Shown in pieces: positions 4,011 through 36,333 of a DNA stretch of 64,000 nt. This DNA is from Sclerotinia nivalis (lineage: Eukaryota; Ascomycota; Leotiomycetes; Helotiales; Sclerotiniaceae). The translations under genes and the position numbers were made by a program. Numbering within the stretch: the first letter of the stretch is position 1; each line of letters opens with the position of its first letter. The stretch lies in NCBI GenBank assembly GCA_029531795.1, contig JAPEIS010000013.1, positions 1,860,001 through 1,924,000 on the forward strand, in the 5' to 3' direction. The notes beneath the pieces are model-generated. The model saw nothing but the letters and a program-made list of their open reading frames with translations. It had not been told where the DNA came from and did no database searches.

Positions 4011-5504
4011 ATGGAAGCTACCAAGCTCCCAATATACAAATTACCTATCCCGTTCGAAATCATTGGATTCGATGGAAAAATACTGTCCGAAAACCAAATG
4101 GATCGTTATATTCTAATCGATCTACAAATCAACAATCATTATAAGAAAAGATCGAAAATCTATATTATTGAATTAGCTTATTATCCGATTATCTTGGAGT
4201 TGGTTTGATTAAAGAAATACGATTTCTATATCGGATTTGTATCCAATACTTTTTGCTTCGATAATAAGTTCTGTTGGAAGTTCTGTAATACATTTGCGCA
4301 ATTATTGAATATTTGAGTTCTATTCGATATCTTTATCAAAGTTCGTTTTGTTTATTTATTGTTTCGTTTTGAAGTGCTAAAGAAAAGAGATATAGCAAGT
4401 GTTTCAATCCGAGTTTGTTCGATGTATATCTATCGAGGTTATAAGATATTCCAAATTAATATCGATTTGATAGACCGAATCCTGAAGGAAAAAAAAGATC
4501 CTGTTTTTGAAAACCTGTCTGCTGAATTCCGTTCGTGGATCGATGTATTTTCTTCACATAATGTTGATAAACTACTTTCGCATTGTCTATACGATTATGA
4601 TATCCGATTGCAAGATGGAGCTAAACTATTGTTTGGAGCCTTGTATTCAATGTTTCGGGACGAATTGAAAGCTTTGCAAGAATGATTAAGGGAAAACCTA
4701 GCAAAAGGATTTATCCGATCGAGTTCCTTTGCTTCCGCTTCACCTATCTTATTTGTTAAGAAATCCAATGATGATCTTCAATTCTGTATAGACTATTATA
4801 TATTGAATAATTTGTTTGTGAAAGATCGATATCTGTTGCCTTTAACCAAAGAGTCCTTGAATAATTTGAAAGGGATAAAGTATTTTACAAAAATAAATAT
4901 CATCTTAACCTTCAATAATATCCGAATCAAAGAAGGACAAGAATATCTAATTGTATTCTGTATTCGATTCGGTCTATTCGAAATCTTGATTATACTGTTC
5001 GGGTTGATCGGAGCTTCAATAACGTTTCAACGATTTATCAACGATACTCTAAAAGAATATTTAGATATATTCTATACTGTTTACCTAGATGATATTCTGA
5101 TTTATAACAAGATCCGTTCTGAATATATAAAGTATATACAAAAGATACTAAACGCCTTACAGAAAACCGGATTGTATATTAATCTATCGAAATACAAATT
5201 CCTGAAACCTGAAACGAAATTCCTGGGCCTAATTGTAGGCCGAGAGAGGATCCGAATGGATCCAATCAAGATTAAGACGATAATTGATTGGAAAACACCG
5301 AAGAACTTAACAGATATACAAATGTTTATAAAGTTTAACAATTTCTATCGATGCTTTATTCACGACTTCTTCTCGATCATTCGTCCAATAGTAAATCTGA
5401 CTAAAAAGGATGTAGCTTTCCAATGGAATCCTGATTATAAGAAATCGTTCTCGAATCTGAAAGCCGTATTTACAATAGCACTTATATTAGCTTCTTTCGA
5501 TTGA
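4011..5504 (+). pseudogene. protease and reverse transcriptase region of Gypsy-A copy 1
   Basis: The protease-like part around 3960-4210 precedes an RT region. The open stretch 4803-5504 holds the RT palm with LFGLIGASITFQRFIND and the catalytic YLDD at 5082-5093, intact here. It continues to the KFLGLIV and FYRCFIHDF motifs. Stops and Trp-to-stop changes flank it. The YLDD box is preserved in this copy but altered to YLDN in copy 2. Confidence 0.88.
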
Positions 5505-7230
5505 AAAAAGAATGTAATTCTAGAGATGGATATATCGAATTATATATCTGTTGAAATCCTTTCCCAATATAATAACAATGGGATTCTAAAATCTGTTGTA
5601 TATTTTTCAAAGAAGCATTCGATTGCAAAATGTAACTACGAGATTTATAATAAAGAATTACTAGCAATTATCTGCTGTTTCGAAAAGTGGTGATCCGAAT
5701 TAGAAGATGCCTTTTCCCTGATCAAGGTCATTACGGATTATAAGAATCTGGAGTACTTTACAATAACAAAACTATTGAATTGTTATCAAATTTGCTGATC
5801 TGAATTTCTGTTTCGTTTCAATTTCAAGATTATATACCATCCCGAAAAGCAAGGAGCGAAACTCAATGCTCTAACTAAGAGATCAAAGGATTTGCTTAAA
5901 GAGGGGGATAAATACCTTTTTCATTAAAATCAGATTGTTTTGAAAATTGAAAATCTAGATACAGATTTGTTTCCTATTGTTAAATCAAAGAAGAAAATCC
6001 GTTTCGCGATTACAACTCATAGCCAAATCTGTACTGATATTCTGTCGTTTGTCCACAATCCCGAATCATTTATCCGCAAACCTGGATTATCTATTTGTGA
6101 ATCTGAATTATCTGTGATACCCAATAACTCAATCCCTGTCCAATTGCTTGAATCTATACAATTGGAACCCCCTGAAGAACTGAAACCCCTGTTCGTTGAA
6201 GTTTACCTGTCCGACCCGCTTCCACTATCGATCTTAAAGGCTTTAAAAAAGAATATTGCTAAATATTTGTATATTATATTATTTGAATATACTATGAACA
6301 ATGACTTATTATATTATTGTAAAAAGCTTTATATTCCTAACTACGATCTTCTGAAAACAAAACTCCTTCGAATGATCCACGATTCCTTTGTTGCCGGACA
6401 CCTGCACTATACTCATACCTTCAAACTACTTTCCCGAAATTACTATTGGTTTGGATATTATAACTATATTTCCTATTGGATATGTAATTATCATAATTGC
6501 TATCGAGCCACTCCGAACCATAAAGGACAAAAAGGAGTCTTACACCCTCTTCCGATCCTATAACAAATCTAGAGAGATATCTCAATCGATTTCATCATCC
6601 ATCTTTCGAAAAGCTTTGGGTACGATACAATATTTGTTGTAATCGATCGATTAACCAAAATGAAGTATTTCCTGCCCTGCCGAGGAACCTGTAATTCCGA
6701 AGAAGTCTCCCGTCTGTTCCTGAAGTATATATAGAAGCTCTATAGTCTGCCGCAGATCATTATATTCGATCATGGAGCTCAGTTTATCTTTGATTTCTGG
6801 AAGTATATCTATAAACGATTAGATATTGTTTCGAAGCTGTCGATAGCTTATCATCCTGAAACCGATGGACAAATGGAAAGGGCGAACGCAATGTTCGAAC
6901 AATACCTTCGTTCGTATGTATCCTATCTGCAGAACGACTAATCCGAATGGCTACCGATCGCTGAATTCTCGATTAACTCTACCTAATCCGAAAGCTTCCA
7001 CCTATCGCTGTTCTTTGCCAATTACAATTTCCATCTCCGAATGGATTTCGAACCCATTGTACTCTCCAATCGCCTTGGAATCCTGGACATTGAGGAATTC
7101 ATCAAAAAGATGAAATCGATCATTGATCACCTAAAGATCGAACTGATTGCTAATCAAGTCTGCTATTTGAAGAATGCCGATTCCCATTGTTCATTTGCTC
7201 ATCGATACCAGTTTGGAGATCTAGTCTAAC
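5505..7230 (+). pseudogene. RNase H and integrase region of Gypsy-A copy 1
   Basis: RNase H residues are visible at about 5600-5770 ([18 protein letters not shown], then a stop). Around 5940-6563 an open segment contains the inter-domain spacer and the integrase zinc-finger region (LLRMIHDSFVAGHLHYTHTF, then CNYHNC). The integrase core continues in broken frames to about 7230, including a segment equivalent to [19 protein letters not shown]. All are interrupted by stops; inactive. Confidence 0.82.
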
Positions 7231-7679: not shown

Positions 7680-7691
7680 GGAGGGGGATAC

Positions 7692-7904
7692 TATCACAAA
7701 GTCCCTATATATAATATACGAAAACCGCTCGGGTTCCGATCCATAGGAATCGGACCTCGGATAAGTGTAGACTAGCCCCGATCGGGGCTAGCATTACACA
7801 TAAATGTATTTAGGGAACCATTCCTTCTATAGAAACATAGCTCTTGGAGCTACATCTTATTAATAAAAGTGATTCCTGTTGTCCTGTCTGTTGCCTCTGT
7901 GATA
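7692..7904 (+). repeat. 3' LTR of Gypsy-A copy 1
   Basis: 213 bp, starting TATCACAAAG and ending GTGATA, then AAAAT as target duplication. More heavily mutated (G-to-A) than the 5' LTR of the same element. Confidence 0.93.
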
Positions 7905-8066
7905 AAAATGATCAATTCTATCCAAATGATCAATATTCGGAATGACCGGTAAAGTAATAAAGCCTTTAAAAAAATAATTTTTGTTATTTTTATAAATACA
8001 ATTGAATAAGTTTTCTCCAGCTTTCCCATCTTTTAAATGTAAACAAAAAACAAAAAACAAAAATAT
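7905..8066. repeat. Remnant of a Copia element (right flank of the Gypsy-A insertion)
   Basis: Bases 7910-7950 (GATCAATTCTATCCAAATGA and on) are the near-identical reverse complement of 54780-54813 inside the minus-strand Copia element. Similarity fades after about 7950. The rest is A-rich with runs of CAAAAAA. Confidence 0.5.
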
Positions 8067-8279
8067 TGTCACGGGGTCCCCGTATATGGTATACGGAGAC
8101 CGCTCGGGTTCCGACCCATAGGAGTCGGACCTCGGATAAGTGTAGGCTAGCCCCGGTCGGGGCTAGCGCTACACATAAATGTATTTAAGGAACCGTTCCT
8201 TCTATAGAAACGTAGCTCTTCGAGCTACGTCTTATTAATAAAAGTGATTCCTGTTGTCCTGTCTGTTGCCTCTGTGATA
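8067..8279 (+). repeat. Solo LTR of the Gypsy-A family, almost undamaged
   Basis: 213 bp, TGTCACGGGG...GTGATA, flanked by the 5 bp duplication AATAT (8062-8066 and 8280-8284). It differs by only a handful of bases from the solo LTR at 54411-54623. It is far less mutated than the LTRs of the full-length copies. Hairpins within it: GGGGTCCCC at the start, GCTAGCCCCGGTCGGGGCTA in the middle and GTAGCTCTTCGAGCTAC near the end. Confidence 0.94.
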
Positions 8280-8838
8280 AATATCACGAATGAAAATGAT
8301 CTCTTTTTGATATTTTTGTTCCCAATTCGGTTATATTCGCTTCACGTCTTAACACCGAGATATTTACATAAGAGGTCAGTTTCGTAGAGTTAATAGTAAT
8401 GCACAAATAGTTTGATATTGAATCGTTGAATCAAGAAAAGACAAAATTAACAGAGATTTGAGAAAAGTCTACAAAAAGGAGATCAAAGAATAATAAAAAG
8501 AATCAAATTAAAAGAAATCTATTCATCAATAATCTGCTGACCAATACAGAATTACTGATAAAATGTATATCAAATTGGATATGATCTTTATTTAAACGAA
8601 GGCTTCTATATTAAGGCCATTCGCACTCAATAGTTCTTTCGAATCTTGATGCACAATTAGAAAAAGTATTAACAAAAGTTTGTTTAGAAGATTCATTTTG
8701 TTAATCGATAAAAATCTTCAAAAAAAAAAAATTGATATTATTTTGGTTGTCCTTGATTGTGTTGTACCAGTAATATATATCACTCTCATATCTCCACTAA
8801 TGAATGTGTCCTCGAAGTTGGGCAAGCGGACTAAAGTT
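8280..8838. other. AT-rich intergenic stretch with a dispersed LTR fragment
   Basis: No gene is seen. Bases 8580-8657 are a transition-mutated copy of 51329-51406 (core CGAAGGCTTCTATATT and CCATTCGCACTCAAT), which I read as the 3' part of the LTR of the Copia element starting at 51216. Confidence 0.55.
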
Positions 8839-9976
8839 TCAATCTTTAACTTTAGTACAGACGGCTTTCTCCGTTCGCCGATCGTTCCAGATTGCTATAG
8901 TAAAGCCTAGTATCATGAATGATCTATATTCAATCAGCTTATCATCAATTTAGAAATTCAATACATTTATATATCTTACTCGTCCCAGACCTTCAGGACC
9001 AACTTCCAGAAATTCTGTTTCGCCCAGCCCCGCCAGGTCTTTGCTGCCTCTCTATATCAACATTTGTTAGCCCTTGTCTGCTATGATAAATCAAAGAAAT
9101 TCCATGACAGTTGAAAATAACTAACCTCATATTGATTATCTCGTCCCTTAGATTAATAGTTAGTTTGATACTATCATCCCTTTCTTGACTTGTGAAGTAT
9201 AATCACTAACAGTTCTTTCACCCTCATTTCTCTGCTTATATGATTAGCAAATTGACAAATAATAGAGTAGACTGGCAATAAGAGATTGGACATCAATCTC
9301 CTCTTGTTATAATCCAGTTTGATGTTCGGAGTGTAATTACTAACAGTACTCTGTTTTGGAACTCACTATAGAGTATATATGATTAGCCTCATTGATAAAA
9401 AAAGACAGGGTGGGCAGGTAGTATATGTAATGCAAACTCGTGGTGTAGAAGATCGTGGTGTATGAATACCACACGACCTTGTATTGTATATATATGATGT
9501 TCCTTCTGACCGTGGAATAACATGCACCAAAAGAAAGTATAAGAAAAGATAAATAAATACTAACAGTTCCCGAATCTTCCTTTGACTGCAATACAAATTA
9601 GTAAAATCCGAATACTCTGCAGCACATATGGACAATAGGATGCGCACTCACTCTTCCTCGCATCCTTTTTCACTGAAATATATCAATATCAACATTCCAG
9701 CTTTCAATAAACATCTGGTCTGGTGGTATAAGAAGATATTCTTACTAATATTCGTTTTCCTTTTTACTGAAAAACAAATTAGAACAACATGCATGAAAGG
9801 AATTAAGTACTTACGTTTTAATTACTTTCCTTTTAATACTAGAATATATTCAGTATATGATATGGTCCTATATATATGGAAGGTACCAAGTGTAGGAATT
9901 TACTTACGACAAGATTATCTCCAATTCGTCTCTGGTAGTGCTATTGTTCCTTTTGTTGGTGATACTTATTGTCTGA
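8839..9976 (-). CDS. Multi-microexon coiled-coil protein, 3' portion (5' end unresolved)
   Basis: Read on the minus strand, nine consecutive exons fit: 9908-9940 (33 nt, or 9908-9976 using an earlier AG), 9815-9838 (24), 9746-9766 (21), 9652-9672 (21), 9565-9585 (21), 9345-9365 (21), 9211-9234 (24), 9126-9146 (21) and 8980-9051 (72). Every length is a multiple of three and every junction is phase 2. Every donor is GTAAGT, GTAAGA, GTGAGT or GTTAGT, every acceptor is AG, and several introns have CTAAC/CTAAT branch sites. Together they give 86 codons with no stop: a charged helix (exon units such as QRKIREL, EFQNRVL, REMRVKEL) leading to WRGWAKQNFWKLVLKVW. The last exon starts at 8923 (stop 8839-8841) or 8894 (stop 8852-8854). 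I found no start codon or signal peptide; the upstream exons lie in 9977-10700 or beyond. No family recognised. A coiled-coil role is inferred from heptad leucines at three successive exon junctions. Confidence 0.68.
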
Positions 9977-11093
9977 CTGAATCGGATTTCATCGTGGATT
10001 CAAAGCTCTCGTAGAGGTGGCCACCACCATGCGGATGTGCTTGCAATTGTTGAACAAGTATTCCGTCCTCATGAAAAAATATTATAAATAATTAAAACAT
10101 GTAGTGATTTCGAATCTCCTTCAAAGTCCTCAGAGAAGAATCAACATATAAGAATACCAGAAGACATTTTCTTGAAATGAAGAAAGGTGAATAATCAAAA
10201 GAGAAGCTGCCATTCCAAGGTTTCGTCTTGATTCGGTTATATCGAACTTTCCTAATTCAGATCTTTATTGACAACCTCGAGTTACGAAAGGAAGGTACAA
10301 GTAACCTTATTTATGTGTCATTGAGCTCCATTATTAATACTATTCACACCGAAGAAAAAGTACTGAAAATTCAATTTCATTTAGATAGATATAGAAATAT
10401 GACTACTTTTACTTTCCTCCCATTAGACCTTCCACTCTAAAGCCCCGACTCTCTTCAATTCGTATAATGACCGCCGTCTCATTCATTCATTAATCCAGCC
10501 CATACTCTCCTCCACATACATAGCACAAGCAGCCTCGATTTCCTCCACCCCAAGACACGCATGCTTTCCATCAAAGTAGATTGACATATTAGAGGTCTCA
10601 ATTAATTTCTGGGATAGAATTGACTACTGGGGGAAAGGACGTGAAAAATATATTCTCAATAATCAACCGTCGAATTTTCCCGCCAAAATACAATTACCTT
10701 CTCAATGAATGTCCTCCTCCCCATTGAAAGTCAATGCAACTTCGAGCTGATGCTTTTTATGGTTATATATCTGGCAGGATAGACTGTATGGCAGGTGCCC
10801 TTTCGCTACCACCCATATCTTTCCTTGAATTTTTTAGTACTGGGTGAAGGGAGATCTTTGATTGTCAGGGCCCGACTTCTTTGAGAGTTTCGGGGTTCTT
10901 GGTGGATTTTTCGCCGTGGATTTGGAGGATGAGGTGTGGTGTAAGTGAAAAGAGAAATGATTTTGTAATACAAGCCAAGGCAAAAAGAAAAATTTCTTAT
11001 AGAAGCTTCTTGACTGCTGTCTCAAAAAGCTTGCTAAAAAGAAAAAAAGAAATTAGAGACTAGTTGGTGATCGATGATAACCTCGTTTATCCT
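9977..11093. other. Unresolved region, probably holding upstream exons of the microexon gene
   Basis: No complete gene can be drawn. On the minus strand an open segment from 10608 to a TGA at 10483-10485 reads like coding DNA (MSIYFDGKHACLGVEEIEAA at 10587 downward). A GTATGT...AG pair inside it would remove the stop and join in phase 2, the same phase used by the microexons. I could not connect it securely to the exon at 9940. A second open run on the minus strand at 9965-10075 is also unassigned. Confidence 0.3.
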
Positions 11094-11696
11094 TCAAAAT
11101 CTTGGAATATGTTTTGGTCCAAATTTTGGCGGCGGTATATATATCCCATCAGCATTTTTCTCCAATCGAGAAGAATCGACACAATATTTTTCCAAAAATT
11201 CTTCGTCCATTAAATCATGCAATTGATTCATTTCATGTATGAAAGTAGCTGCCTTCGCGTAACCCTCTTCAAAATCCACCGTATCGTAAGGCACTTCAAA
11301 AGCAGTGTTGATACTCGCAGCTAGGTCTCGTATTTTCACCATGCGGGCAGCATCTTGTTGATAGGTTTCAACCCAAGATTGCTTCCTTTCATCCTCCAAT
11401 AATCTCCATCTTGCGATGTTTTCATGCTCGAGGGTCGAAATTTTTTGATGACACGTTTCCACATCCATAAAACCTTGTATCAGCCATTTGAGAAGCAGCA
11501 CGAATATGAGAAAGATGACGCTCATGATCCAGATTGGAATCGAGATATTCTCTTGGTTGGTAGTACAAAATGAGCAGAAGTAATCATCGGTTGTACGATT
11601 GAGTATAAAGGCAATGGTCGTAGGGAGGGAGGTTGGAGAATTGCTGGATGTTGATGTCATGGTGGTTAAACTTGTGGTTGGAAGAAAAGGCGCCAT
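11094..11696 (-). CDS. Hypothetical single-pass membrane protein with coiled coil
   Basis: Single exon, 200 residues, ATG at 11694-11696. The first 30 residues are Ser/Thr/Pro-rich (MAPFLPTTSLTTMTSTSSNS). A hydrophobic segment at about residues 51-70 (ISIPIWIMSVIFLIFVLLLK) would span the membrane once. Before it is a CSFC pair at 41-44. After it come charged residues 80-130 predicted to be helical/coiled (QKISTLEHENIARWRLLEDE) and an acidic region, ending in a proline-rich tail (IYIPPPKFGPKHIPRF). No signal-peptide cleavage pattern and no HxxHC motif, so it is not a UstY-type (DUF3328) oxidase. Family unknown. The consistent protein-like composition over 200 codons and clean boundaries make it likely to be real. 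Confidence 0.6.
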   Translation of the reverse strand: MAPFLPTTSLTTMTSTSSNSPTSLPTTIAFILNRTTDDYFCSFCTTNQENISIPIWIMSVIFLIFVLLLKWLIQGFMDVETCHQKISTLEHENIARWRLLEDERKQSWVETYQQDAARMVKIRDLAASINTAFEVPYDTVDFEEGYAKAATFIHEMNQLHDLMDEEFLEKYCVDSSRLEKNADGIYIPPPKFGPKHIPRF

Positions 11697-22115: not shown

Positions 22116-22823
22116 CTAGCCAGAACCGTGGCCGGCGGGCAGTAAAGCTAGAAGGGCAGCAGCACTCTCGGCTCGCTTGACTTCTTCCTCCGATGGCTCA
22201 CGTTTTGAAGAGCCATGACCGGCTGGAAGAAGAGCAAGAAGACCAGCAGCAGTATCAGCCCTTTTCTCATGACCGGGCGGAAGAAGAGCAAGAAGACCAG
22301 CAGCAGTATCAGCCCTTTTCTCATGACCGGGTGGGAGAAGAGCAAGAAGACCAGCAGCAGTATCAGCCCTTTTCTCATGACCGGGTGGGAGAAGAGCAAG
22401 AAGGCCAGCAGCAGTATCAGCCCTTTTCTCATGACCAGGTGGAAGAAGAGCAAGAAGGCCAGCAGCAGTATCACCTCTTTTCTCATGACCCGGCGGGAGA
22501 AGAGCAAGCAGATCAGCGGCGGAATTCGCTCTCTTAGAATCTTCTTCTGGTTCACGCTTTGATGAGCCATGACCTGCTGGGAGGAGAGCAAGTAGAGAGG
22601 CAGCATCCGCTCGCGTTTCGATATTTCTTTCAACCGCAGAGGCAGCGAGGGAAGTGAATTCGGCTTGGCCGCGTGCTGTTAGGTGGTCGAAATCTACACC
22701 AGCGGCAACAATTGCAGCGTGGAGATCTCCAATGGGCATACCTCGCCCAGCTAAAACTGGAGCAGCAAGGGAGGTAGTGGCGAATGCGACCAGCGCAAGA
22801 GAAAGAATGGATTGATTACGCAT
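22116..22823 (-). CDS. Secreted Kex2-processed repeat peptide precursor (KEP type), eight repeats
   Basis: Single exon, 235 residues from ATG at 22821-22823; an upstream in-frame Met at 22919 would hide the signal peptide and is less likely. Residues 1-25 form a signal peptide (MRNQSILSLALVAFATTSLA). A pro-region follows to about 70, then eight copies of a peptide with the LLALLP core. The unit consensus is ADTAAGLLALLPPGHEKR. Lys-Arg pairs, the Kex2 site, occur at 89-90, 97-98, 115-116, 133-134, 151-152, 169-170, 187-188, 207-208 and 216-217. The middle four units are nearly identical; outer units end PAGHGSS, and two acidic spacers (EPEEDSKR, EPSEEEVKR) separate them. Such precursors are cleaved in the Golgi into multiple secreted peptides; the class includes pheromones and RiPP precursors. 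The core has no Tyr or Phe and no pheromone-like motif, so the product is unassigned. No tailoring oxidase is present in the window. Confidence 0.88.
   Translation of the reverse strand: MRNQSILSLALVAFATTSLAAPVLAGRGMPIGDLHAAIVAAGVDFDHLTARGQAEFTSLAASAVERNIETRADAASLLALLPAGHGSSKREPEEDSKRANSAADLLALLPPGHEKRGDTAAGLLALLPPGHEKRADTAAGLLALLPPGHEKRADTAAGLLALLPPGHEKRADTAAGLLALLPPGHEKRADTAAGLLALLPAGHGSSKREPSEEEVKRAESAAALLALLPAGHGSG
22184..22600 (-). repeat. 54 bp tandem repeat encoding the Kex2 peptide units
   Basis: CAGCCCTTTTCTCATGACC (plus strand) recurs at 22256, 22310, 22364 and 22418 with a strict 54 bp period. Diverged units lie on both sides. Near-identity of the central units at the DNA level suggests recent unequal exchange. 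Confidence 0.88.
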
Positions 22824-22951
22824 ATTGAATATCGATGGTAATATTAAAAAAAAAGGACTGAAATAGAAGAACTTGTAGATTGATGAAAGAATACGAAATA
22901 ATTGTGTGAGCACCGCCAAGGAAGAAGGGAAAGTTTCTGTGCGGCTTCGAG

Positions 22952-35193: not shown

Positions 35194-36333
35194 TTAACGA
35201 CGGTTCAATAACTTTGTTATTATAAAGTACTCCAGATTCTTATGATCCGTAATGACCTTGATCGGGAAAAAGGCGCTTTCTAATTCGGATCGCCACTCTT
35301 CGAAACAGCAGATAATTGTCAGTAATTCTTTATCATAAATCTCGTAGTTACATTCTACAATCGAATACTTCTTTGAAAAATATACAACAGATTTCAGAAT
35401 CCCATCGTCATCGTATTGAAAGAGGACTCCAACAAATACATAATCCGATACATCCGTCTCTAGAATTACATCCTTTTCCCAATCAAAAAAGGCTAACACA
35501 AATACCGCCGTAAATACGGCTTTCAGACTCGAAAACGATTTCTCATAACCAGGATCCCATTGGAAAACTACATCCTTCTTAATCAGATTTACCATCGAGC
35601 AAATGATCAAAGAGAAATCGCAAATAAAGCATCAATAGAAATTACTAAACCCTATAAACATTTATACATCCGTCAGGTTCTTCGGCGTTTTCCAATCAAT
35701 TATCGTCTTAATCTTGACTGGGTCCATTCGGATCCCCTCTCAGCCTACAATTAGACCCAGGAATTTCGTTTCAGGTTTCAGGAATTCGCATTTCGACAGA
35801 TTGGCATACAATCCGGCTTTCCGTAAGGCGTCTAATACCTTTTGTATATGCTTTATATATTCAAAACGGGTCTTGCTATAAATCAGAATATTATCCAAAT
35901 AAACAATGCAGAATATATCCAGATATTCTCTTAGAGTATCGTTAATAAATCGTTGAAACATTGCTGGAGCTCCGGTCAGCCCGAACAGCATAACCAAGGT
36001 TTCGAACAGGCCGAATCGGGTACGGAATGCAATTAGGTATTCTTGTCCTTCCTTGATTCGGATATTATTGAAGGCCAAAATGATATCTATTTTTGTAAAA
36101 TACTTCATCCCTTTCAGGTTATTCAAGGACTCTTTGGTTAAAGGCAACAGGTATCGATCTTTCACAGACAGATTATTCAACGCACGATAATCTACACAGA
36201 ATCGAAGACCACCATTGGGTTTCTTAACAAATAAGACAAGCAAAGCAGAAACAAAGGAACTCAATCGGATGAATCCTTTTGCTAAGTTTTCCCTTAACCA
36301 TTCTTGCAAAGCTTTCAATTCGTCCCGAGACAT
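35194..36333 (-). pseudogene. RT and RNase H of Gypsy-A copy 2
   Basis: 36333-35740 encodes RT with [37 protein letters not shown] and [10 protein letters not shown]. The second catalytic Asp of YLDD has become Asn, a single G-to-A change that would inactivate the enzyme. 35610-35194 encodes RNase H ([20 protein letters not shown], then [18 protein letters not shown]). A stop separates them. Confidence 0.87.

Follow-up and report, generated by a model that had tools for sequence, protein, structure and literature searches.

In animals, the 54-bp exons of the fibrillar collagen genes each correspond to six Gly-X-Y triplets; the exons of schistosome microexon genes (MEGs) are multiples of three, which allows skipping, and the bicycle proteins of aphids carry paired cysteine-tyrosine-cysteine motifs and a signal peptide. 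Genes with serial microexons are already known, a microexon being limited, in the available part of one account, to at most 51 nt (PMC6600660). Aphid bicycle genes, as described in the available part of PMC9168663, have many very small internal exons, nearly all of phase 2, with ~17 exons on average, and sequence divergence among them is so high that gene structure served to find relatives. Schistosome MEGs have serial short exons of 3-81 bp, introns of up to 5 kbp and secreted products, according to the accessible portion of PMC10526429. Among fungi, the SP7-like effectors of Rhizophagus irregularis have a signal peptide and 6-11 hydrophilic repeat units ending in a conserved island, and are nuclear; the number of repeat units varies between paralogues, and shared gene structure was taken as evidence of common origin (PMC11333574, available part).

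Here, a gene on the minus strand of a 64,000-nt stretch of Sclerotinia nivalis DNA (the window; contig C13, JAPEIS010000013.1) was examined by computation, together with a second gene on contig C9. Over both loci, 26 of the 29 internal exons are 36 nt or shorter and lie in runs, within the microexon limit of 51 nt. Like the bicycle genes in the available part of their description, the window and C9 genes have small phase-2 internal exons; unlike them, bicycle genes are insect genes, expressed in the salivary gland and regarded as putative gall effectors, and no one-exon-one-heptad rule was found in that part of the source (PMC9168663). The MEGs share the serial short exons, with no heptad array mentioned in the accessible portion of PMC10526429. 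The SP7-like effectors are fungal repeat proteins, as are the products considered here, although the word microexon is absent from the available text of PMC11333574. Collagen exons, as here, are an exact multiple of a structural repeat, but that repeat is not a coiled-coil heptad. A literature search for heptad-sized exons in fungi yielded none among the matches listed, which were open-licence papers. The reading preferred here, to which a probability of roughly three in four is assigned, is that the window contains a real spliced coiled-coil gene belonging to a small Sclerotinia set with serial 21-nt heptad exons, grown by duplication of exon-plus-intron modules.

The exon chain in the window

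Donor, branch-site and acceptor tables were trained on 38 introns, taken from 200 kb of this genome, that link long frames; the introns had been selected by a CTRAY branch site and a YAG acceptor, and it is this class that the tables describe. An earlier note had proposed nine successive exons on the minus strand, and splice scoring and chain tests bear this array out with some corrections. The series comprises one 24-nt exon and six 21-nt exons (9838-9126), followed by exons of 72 and 85 nt. The 24-nt microexon (9815..9838, IKRKVIKT) has a GTAAGT donor (8.9) and an acceptor with CTGAA as possible branch site, which scores 0.9, or 10.8 under relaxed scoring. It is followed by 9746..9766 (KKENEYY; acceptor 14.9 with a CTAAT branch, donor GTAAGA 6.8) and 9652..9672 (EKGCEED; acceptor 8.9, donor GTGAGT 7.2). 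The next four microexons all have GTTAGT donors scoring 6.9, namely 9565..9585 (QRKIREL; acceptor 14.9), 9345..9365 (EFQNRVL; 13.9), 9211..9231 (EMRVKEL; 13.9) and 9126..9146 (DEIINMR; AAG acceptor, 9.4). This donor, present at four successive introns of the gene, is absent from the 20 donor types listed, which account for 39 of 40 introns. The 72-nt exon (8980..9051; acceptor 14.7, donor GTAAGA 6.8) encodes a tryptophan-rich segment, EAAKTWRGWAKQNFWKLVLKVWDE, and the last coding exon (8839..8923, 85 nt; acceptor 15.8 with a CTGAT branch) encodes SFMILGFTIAIWNDRRTEKAVCTKVKD followed by TGA. This terminal exon is part of the best gene model, and had been left out of the earlier exon list even though it falls inside the interval 8839..9976 given with that list.

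Every listed exon from 9838 to 8839 is joined in phase 2 without stop or frameshift. The donors had all been called strong, which holds (6.8-8.9, all within the training range of 3.5-8.9). The acceptors lie within the training range (11.3-16.9) at five of the eight internal exons and below it at exons 9838 (0.9), 9672 (8.9) and 9146 (9.4). Exon 9231-9211 may be read as 21 nt with a CAG acceptor, or as the 24 nt originally proposed for it with an AAG acceptor 3 nt upstream; the automatic relaxed chain took the longer form, whereas the heptad register favours the 21-nt form.

These calculations place the chain far beyond chance. A strict search for in-phase, stop-free exons of 15-33 nt gave a chain of six at the window gene, whereas the longest chain was two in 2000 dinucleotide shuffles of the region (14/2000) and also two in 41 other sequence-strands of 264 kb (2/41). 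With a slightly relaxed search (looser branch site, exons up to 36 nt) the chain reached seven, against a maximum of two both in shuffles (13/1000) and in 95 other chunk-strands (3/95). The region is AT-rich, and a fortuitous run of GT and AG sites might be expected more readily in such DNA; however, none of the 2000 shuffles reached even three units and a second locus of like design has a complete frame, making an accidental run exceedingly improbable.

The 5' end of the gene is less clear. Under relaxed scoring, upstream acceptors score -0.9 at 9941 and 3.5 at 9977, compared with 10.8 for exon 9838. A tentative second exon of 69 nt (9908..9976) thus combines a good donor at 9907 (GTAAGT, 8.9) with a weak acceptor (3.5 at 9977, or lower). 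The first exon of 33 nt proposed earlier corresponds to the last 33 nt of this exon, and its acceptor (-0.9 at 9941) is weak. The ATG at 10587 is the only listed phase-2 start with a donor above 3 (7.8), and gives a full frame of 147 aa; the tentative first exon that it opens (10520..10587, 68 nt, MSIYFDGKHACLGVEEIEAACA) has a GTATGT donor. The weak points of this model are the 543-nt intron that follows and the weak next acceptor. A path search restricted to introns of up to 300 nt kept this ATG but took a different donor for it, together with a 4-nt exon, whereas the best gene model, with a score of 47.0, starts at 9992 and replaces exons 9838 and 9766 with a single 14-nt exon. A model in an alternative frame, which differs from exon 9672 onwards, scored 46.0.

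With a 5' end and start that are tentative, the window copy could be truncated or decaying. Indeed, it might be a pseudogene fragment in which the microexon part is intact and the 5' part lost, a tentative reading that is compatible with the explanation favoured for the C9 gene. The acceptors before the first listed exon are all weak, no convincing start was found, genes of transposable elements lie nearby, and the protein database search found no homologue of the window protein at lengths of about 60-190 aa (one candidate). On the other hand, the listed exons are free of stops and frameshifts, all donors are intact, a phase-consistent start is present at 10587, and the codon preference of the exons is just positive (2.0 bits, compared with 14.8 for the C9 gene) against summed log-odds of -31.0 and -70.7 in the other two frames, in which stops weigh in. 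On balance, loss of the 5' part is considered possible rather than probable.

Directly upstream of the gene on the same strand, 11094-11696 is an open frame of 200 aa in which one likely membrane-spanning segment is visible by eye; no Pfam family matches it above cut-off. Just downstream of the gene are two direct repeats of 229 nt (7688-7916 and 8063-8291; 89% identity, spaced by 375 nt), both containing a short GC-rich palindrome. Proteins of Sclerotinia sclerotiorum, S. trifoliorum and Stromatinia cepivora share 68-70% identity with a neighbouring RING-finger protein, and a 5.8S comparison gave a single match, which fell short of the cut-off. Reverse transcriptase (RVT_1) and integrase zinc-binding (H2C2) domains at 4803-6563 and 35740-36333 represent transposon remains flanking the gene-rich part. 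A 54-nt tandem repeat at 22214-22517 (5.6 copies, 94%) gives an 18-residue repeat in the minus-strand open frame 22116-22919, and the long stretch from 38000 to 64000, with 21-30% GC, resembles repeat-rich fungal DNA of the kind presumably affected by RIP.

A second locus on contig C9

The genome was searched with a splice-site pattern (CTAA, 9-15 bases, AG, 21 bases, GTTAGT), which gave 17 matches compared with 125 for a reversed control; four of these lie in the window gene and two side by side on contig C9. A second splice-site pattern gave 22 matches compared with 83 for its reversed control. Both patterns are rarer than their controls, and therefore a single match means nothing; repeated matches occurred at the window gene and at C9, and otherwise only as two overlapping readings of one site on C16. 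The C9 locus was hence located by splice-site pattern and not by heptad content, although the pattern fixed the exon at 21 nt, such that two of the twelve 21-nt exons there were picked by length and the other ten were not.

The gene on C9 (plus strand, C9:1396311-1399396, spanning stretches L025 and L026) comprises 23 exons of 7, 43, 33, 36, 21, 24, 30, nine times 21, 30, 30, 21, 21, 24, 84 and 16 nt, twelve being exactly 21 nt. The frame runs from ATG to TGA without a stop and encodes 202 aa. From exon 2 on, junctions are of phase 2 (21 of 22), the first being of phase 1. The longest strict chain at this locus was eight, against a maximum of three in shuffles (2/1000). Introns are 48-79 nt in length save one of 1241 nt (L025:836-2076), in which a segment of 167 bases matches C16:1340803-1340982 at 72% identity; given this likeness, the long intron may hold an old insertion. 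Two exons were added by eye, namely the last exon and 1397007-1397027, which has an AAG acceptor; the latter was skipped by the automatic chain and is present in a database protein.

That protein, OCU04_008398 (P0005), and OCU04_008399 (P0006), both of S. nivalis, agree with 16 of the 22 C9 junctions, among them the one at the 7-nt first exon. In the database annotation the locus appears as two genes; five junctions in the neighbourhood of the long intron are absent, and a 57-nt intron is treated as coding sequence. Because of this last reading, exons 6 and 7 may in fact be a single exon of 111 nt. Taken together, 28 of the 29 internal exons of the two loci are multiples of three, in keeping with the exon symmetry proposed for the window gene, and 18 of the 29 are 21 nt. 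Similarity between the window and C9 proteins is weak (P 0.01 for the whole, 0.017-0.03 for the C-termini); it suggests common descent without amounting to proof. The likeness of the window 5' region, in three frames, to the C9 N-terminus was not significant.

Searches for further relatives returned little. A paralogue search of the same genome, conducted with the DNA of the window array and both C9 arrays and with the proteins, found only self-matches. The protein database search with the C9 protein found only the two S. nivalis entries among 90 candidates, which were limited by length; within that limit, neither protein had a homologue from another species. That the protein database lacks relatives may reflect missing annotation rather than missing genes. 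Pfam profiles gave no match to the window protein above the curated cut-off and five weak ones, the best being MAP7 and CENP-F_leu_zip (E 0.007-0.008), and no match to P0005 or P0006; the PDB gave one weak match only, to a peptidase M23 chain (E 0.055).

The search for further arrays covered about 0.3 Mb of one 50.3-Mb genome of 31 contigs. Strict scans of 20 stretches (200 kb) of contigs C1-C5 found no chain above two, and a relaxed scan detected four chains elsewhere, each of 3-4 exons that varied in length. In 32 short stretches around all other pattern matches no 21-nt series was found; the longest relaxed chains there were of seven exons of 16-38 nt (L031) and five exons of 12-57 nt (L045). 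The gene at L031:360-1601 resembles, by eye, a LaeA-type methyltransferase; ordinary genes of this genome would thus seem to contain small exons too, though not as 21-nt series.

The combination of phase-2 internal microexons and a lack of homologues recalls the bicycle genes as described in the available part of PMC9168663, and Sclerotinia species are plant pathogens. By analogy with those genes and with the MEGs, the product could be a secreted, fast-evolving host-interaction protein encoded by serial microexons. However, the C9 protein starts MSGNITQALRRRRIRRG, in which no signal peptide is apparent by eye, and the product would be a coiled coil with a single cysteine rather than a protein with the paired motifs of the bicycle family. 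Nor does the C9 protein, by eye, show the signal peptide plus hydrophilic units of the SP7 type, the comparison being with the description in the available part of PMC11333574. An effector is considered quite improbable; in the preferred reading the protein would act within the cell, in a structural or oligomerising capacity.

Heptad content of the exons

Spacing of hydrophobic residues by three and then four positions is the a/d pattern of coiled coils, and Ile, Val or Asn at a with Leu at d recall dimeric zippers. Over the 18 exons of 21 nt from both loci, Ile, Leu, Val, Met or Phe occupies 22 of the 36 places at positions 4 and 7, compared with 33 of 126 places overall, and none of 100,000 within-exon shuffles reached 22/36 in any register (P about 1e-5). 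Residue 4 is one of these five in 11 of the 18 exons and Asn in three more, while residue 7, whose codon the intron interrupts, belongs to the five in 11 of the 18, with Leu in seven of these. With hydrophobic residues at 4 (a) and 7 (d), and the d codon cut by the intron, one exon amounts to one heptad, examples over both loci being QRKIREL, EFQNRVL, EMRVKEL, DVKIQKL and QEEIKNL. Read in the two remaining frames, nine and five of these 18 exons, respectively, contain stops.

In the C9 gene alone, the five residues occupy 16 of the 24 a/d places, a value which none of 100,000 shuffles attained in that register. The window's own heptad signal is modest (6/12 a/d places, P 0.028), as is that of the hydrophobic moment at period 3.5 (P 0.039 for the window part, 0.10 for exons 9585 to 9146 alone). 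Single-sequence AlphaFold2 predictions for P0005 and P0006 gave one long helix over the microexon part, with block pLDDT of 63-91 and 68-95, respectively; this constitutes weak support, because pTM was low (0.32 for P0005, 0.38 for P0006) and four of five P0006 models had a mean pLDDT below 40. The proposal that serial microexons each encode one coiled-coil heptad is nonetheless strongly supported, and is strengthened by the second locus with its complete open frame.

Origin of the array and change of length

If expressed and spliced as drawn, each exon would encode one heptad read e-f-g-a-b-c-d, in which a hydrophobic residue or Asn would be favoured at a and Leu at d, each intron would cut the d codon in phase 2, and the protein would end in a helical, aromatic C-terminal segment. 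The array most likely grew as modules of one 21-nt exon plus one intron of roughly 50-70 nt were duplicated in tandem, an origin that accords with the regular unit of 21 nt, the unchanging phase and the position of the introns in the d codon. A module gained or lost would leave frame and heptad register intact and the splice sites functional, and therefore the length of the rod could change by exactly seven residues each time.

Comparison of introns provides some traces of such duplication. The alignment of C9 introns 7 and 10 scores z 7.0, compared with at most 4.5 among the 260 control pairs, out of 703, that were scored; in the window gene, introns 6 and 7 agree at 13 of the 20 bases past the donor, where the control maximum was 12. 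Pairs above z 3 amount to 5.6% of 36 in the window, 1.9% of 210 at C9 and 0.8% of 260 controls. In the comparison of whole introns, however, none of the 36 window pairs exceeded the control maximum (best z 4.0), so duplication is evident for a few units only; since few pairs stand out, the array may be old, or only parts of it may have grown by duplication. Two repeats, D3 and D4, extend from exon into intron, which fits module duplication, bearing in mind that short two-copy repeats often arise by chance.

Conversely, an ordinary continuous coiled-coil exon with 21-nt repeats may have come first and later acquired introns, introner-like or other, at an identical position in every repeat. Mean intron-end identity is higher in the arrays (0.29-0.34) than in controls (0.26-0.27), as expected of a common intron source, and most exon sequences differ; the raised identity also speaks for module duplication. 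Set against this, the exact 21-nt spacing, single phase and single codon position would need a targeted insertion site, yet only four of 31 exon ends, counted by eye, are AG, so no common protosplice motif is apparent; additionally, the D3 and D4 repeats cross from exon into intron. Later insertion is thus regarded as unlikely, and duplication of exon-plus-intron modules is retained as the probable origin.

The frame symmetry behind the earlier suggestion, that exon skipping might generate length variants, is real; the skipping itself is conjectural. Fungal splicing is mostly intron-defined, and for this reason intron retention is commoner than exon skipping in fungi. More speculatively, and with rather low probability, rod length may be set in exact heptad steps by RNA-level choice or by recombination, in which case the Sclerotinia gene family would serve as adjustable spacers or partner-choice zippers.

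Exon borders seldom match structural repeats as closely as in the window and C9 genes. The identity of a 21-nt exon with a heptad gives a clean test of the origin of exon modules, by duplication or by intron insertion. The two genes also exemplify a class that annotation can split, as with the C9 gene recorded as two proteins, or miss, as with the window gene that has no match, and they bear on the processing of successive 21-nt exons by a fungal spliceosome and on whether splicing tunes the length of a coiled coil.
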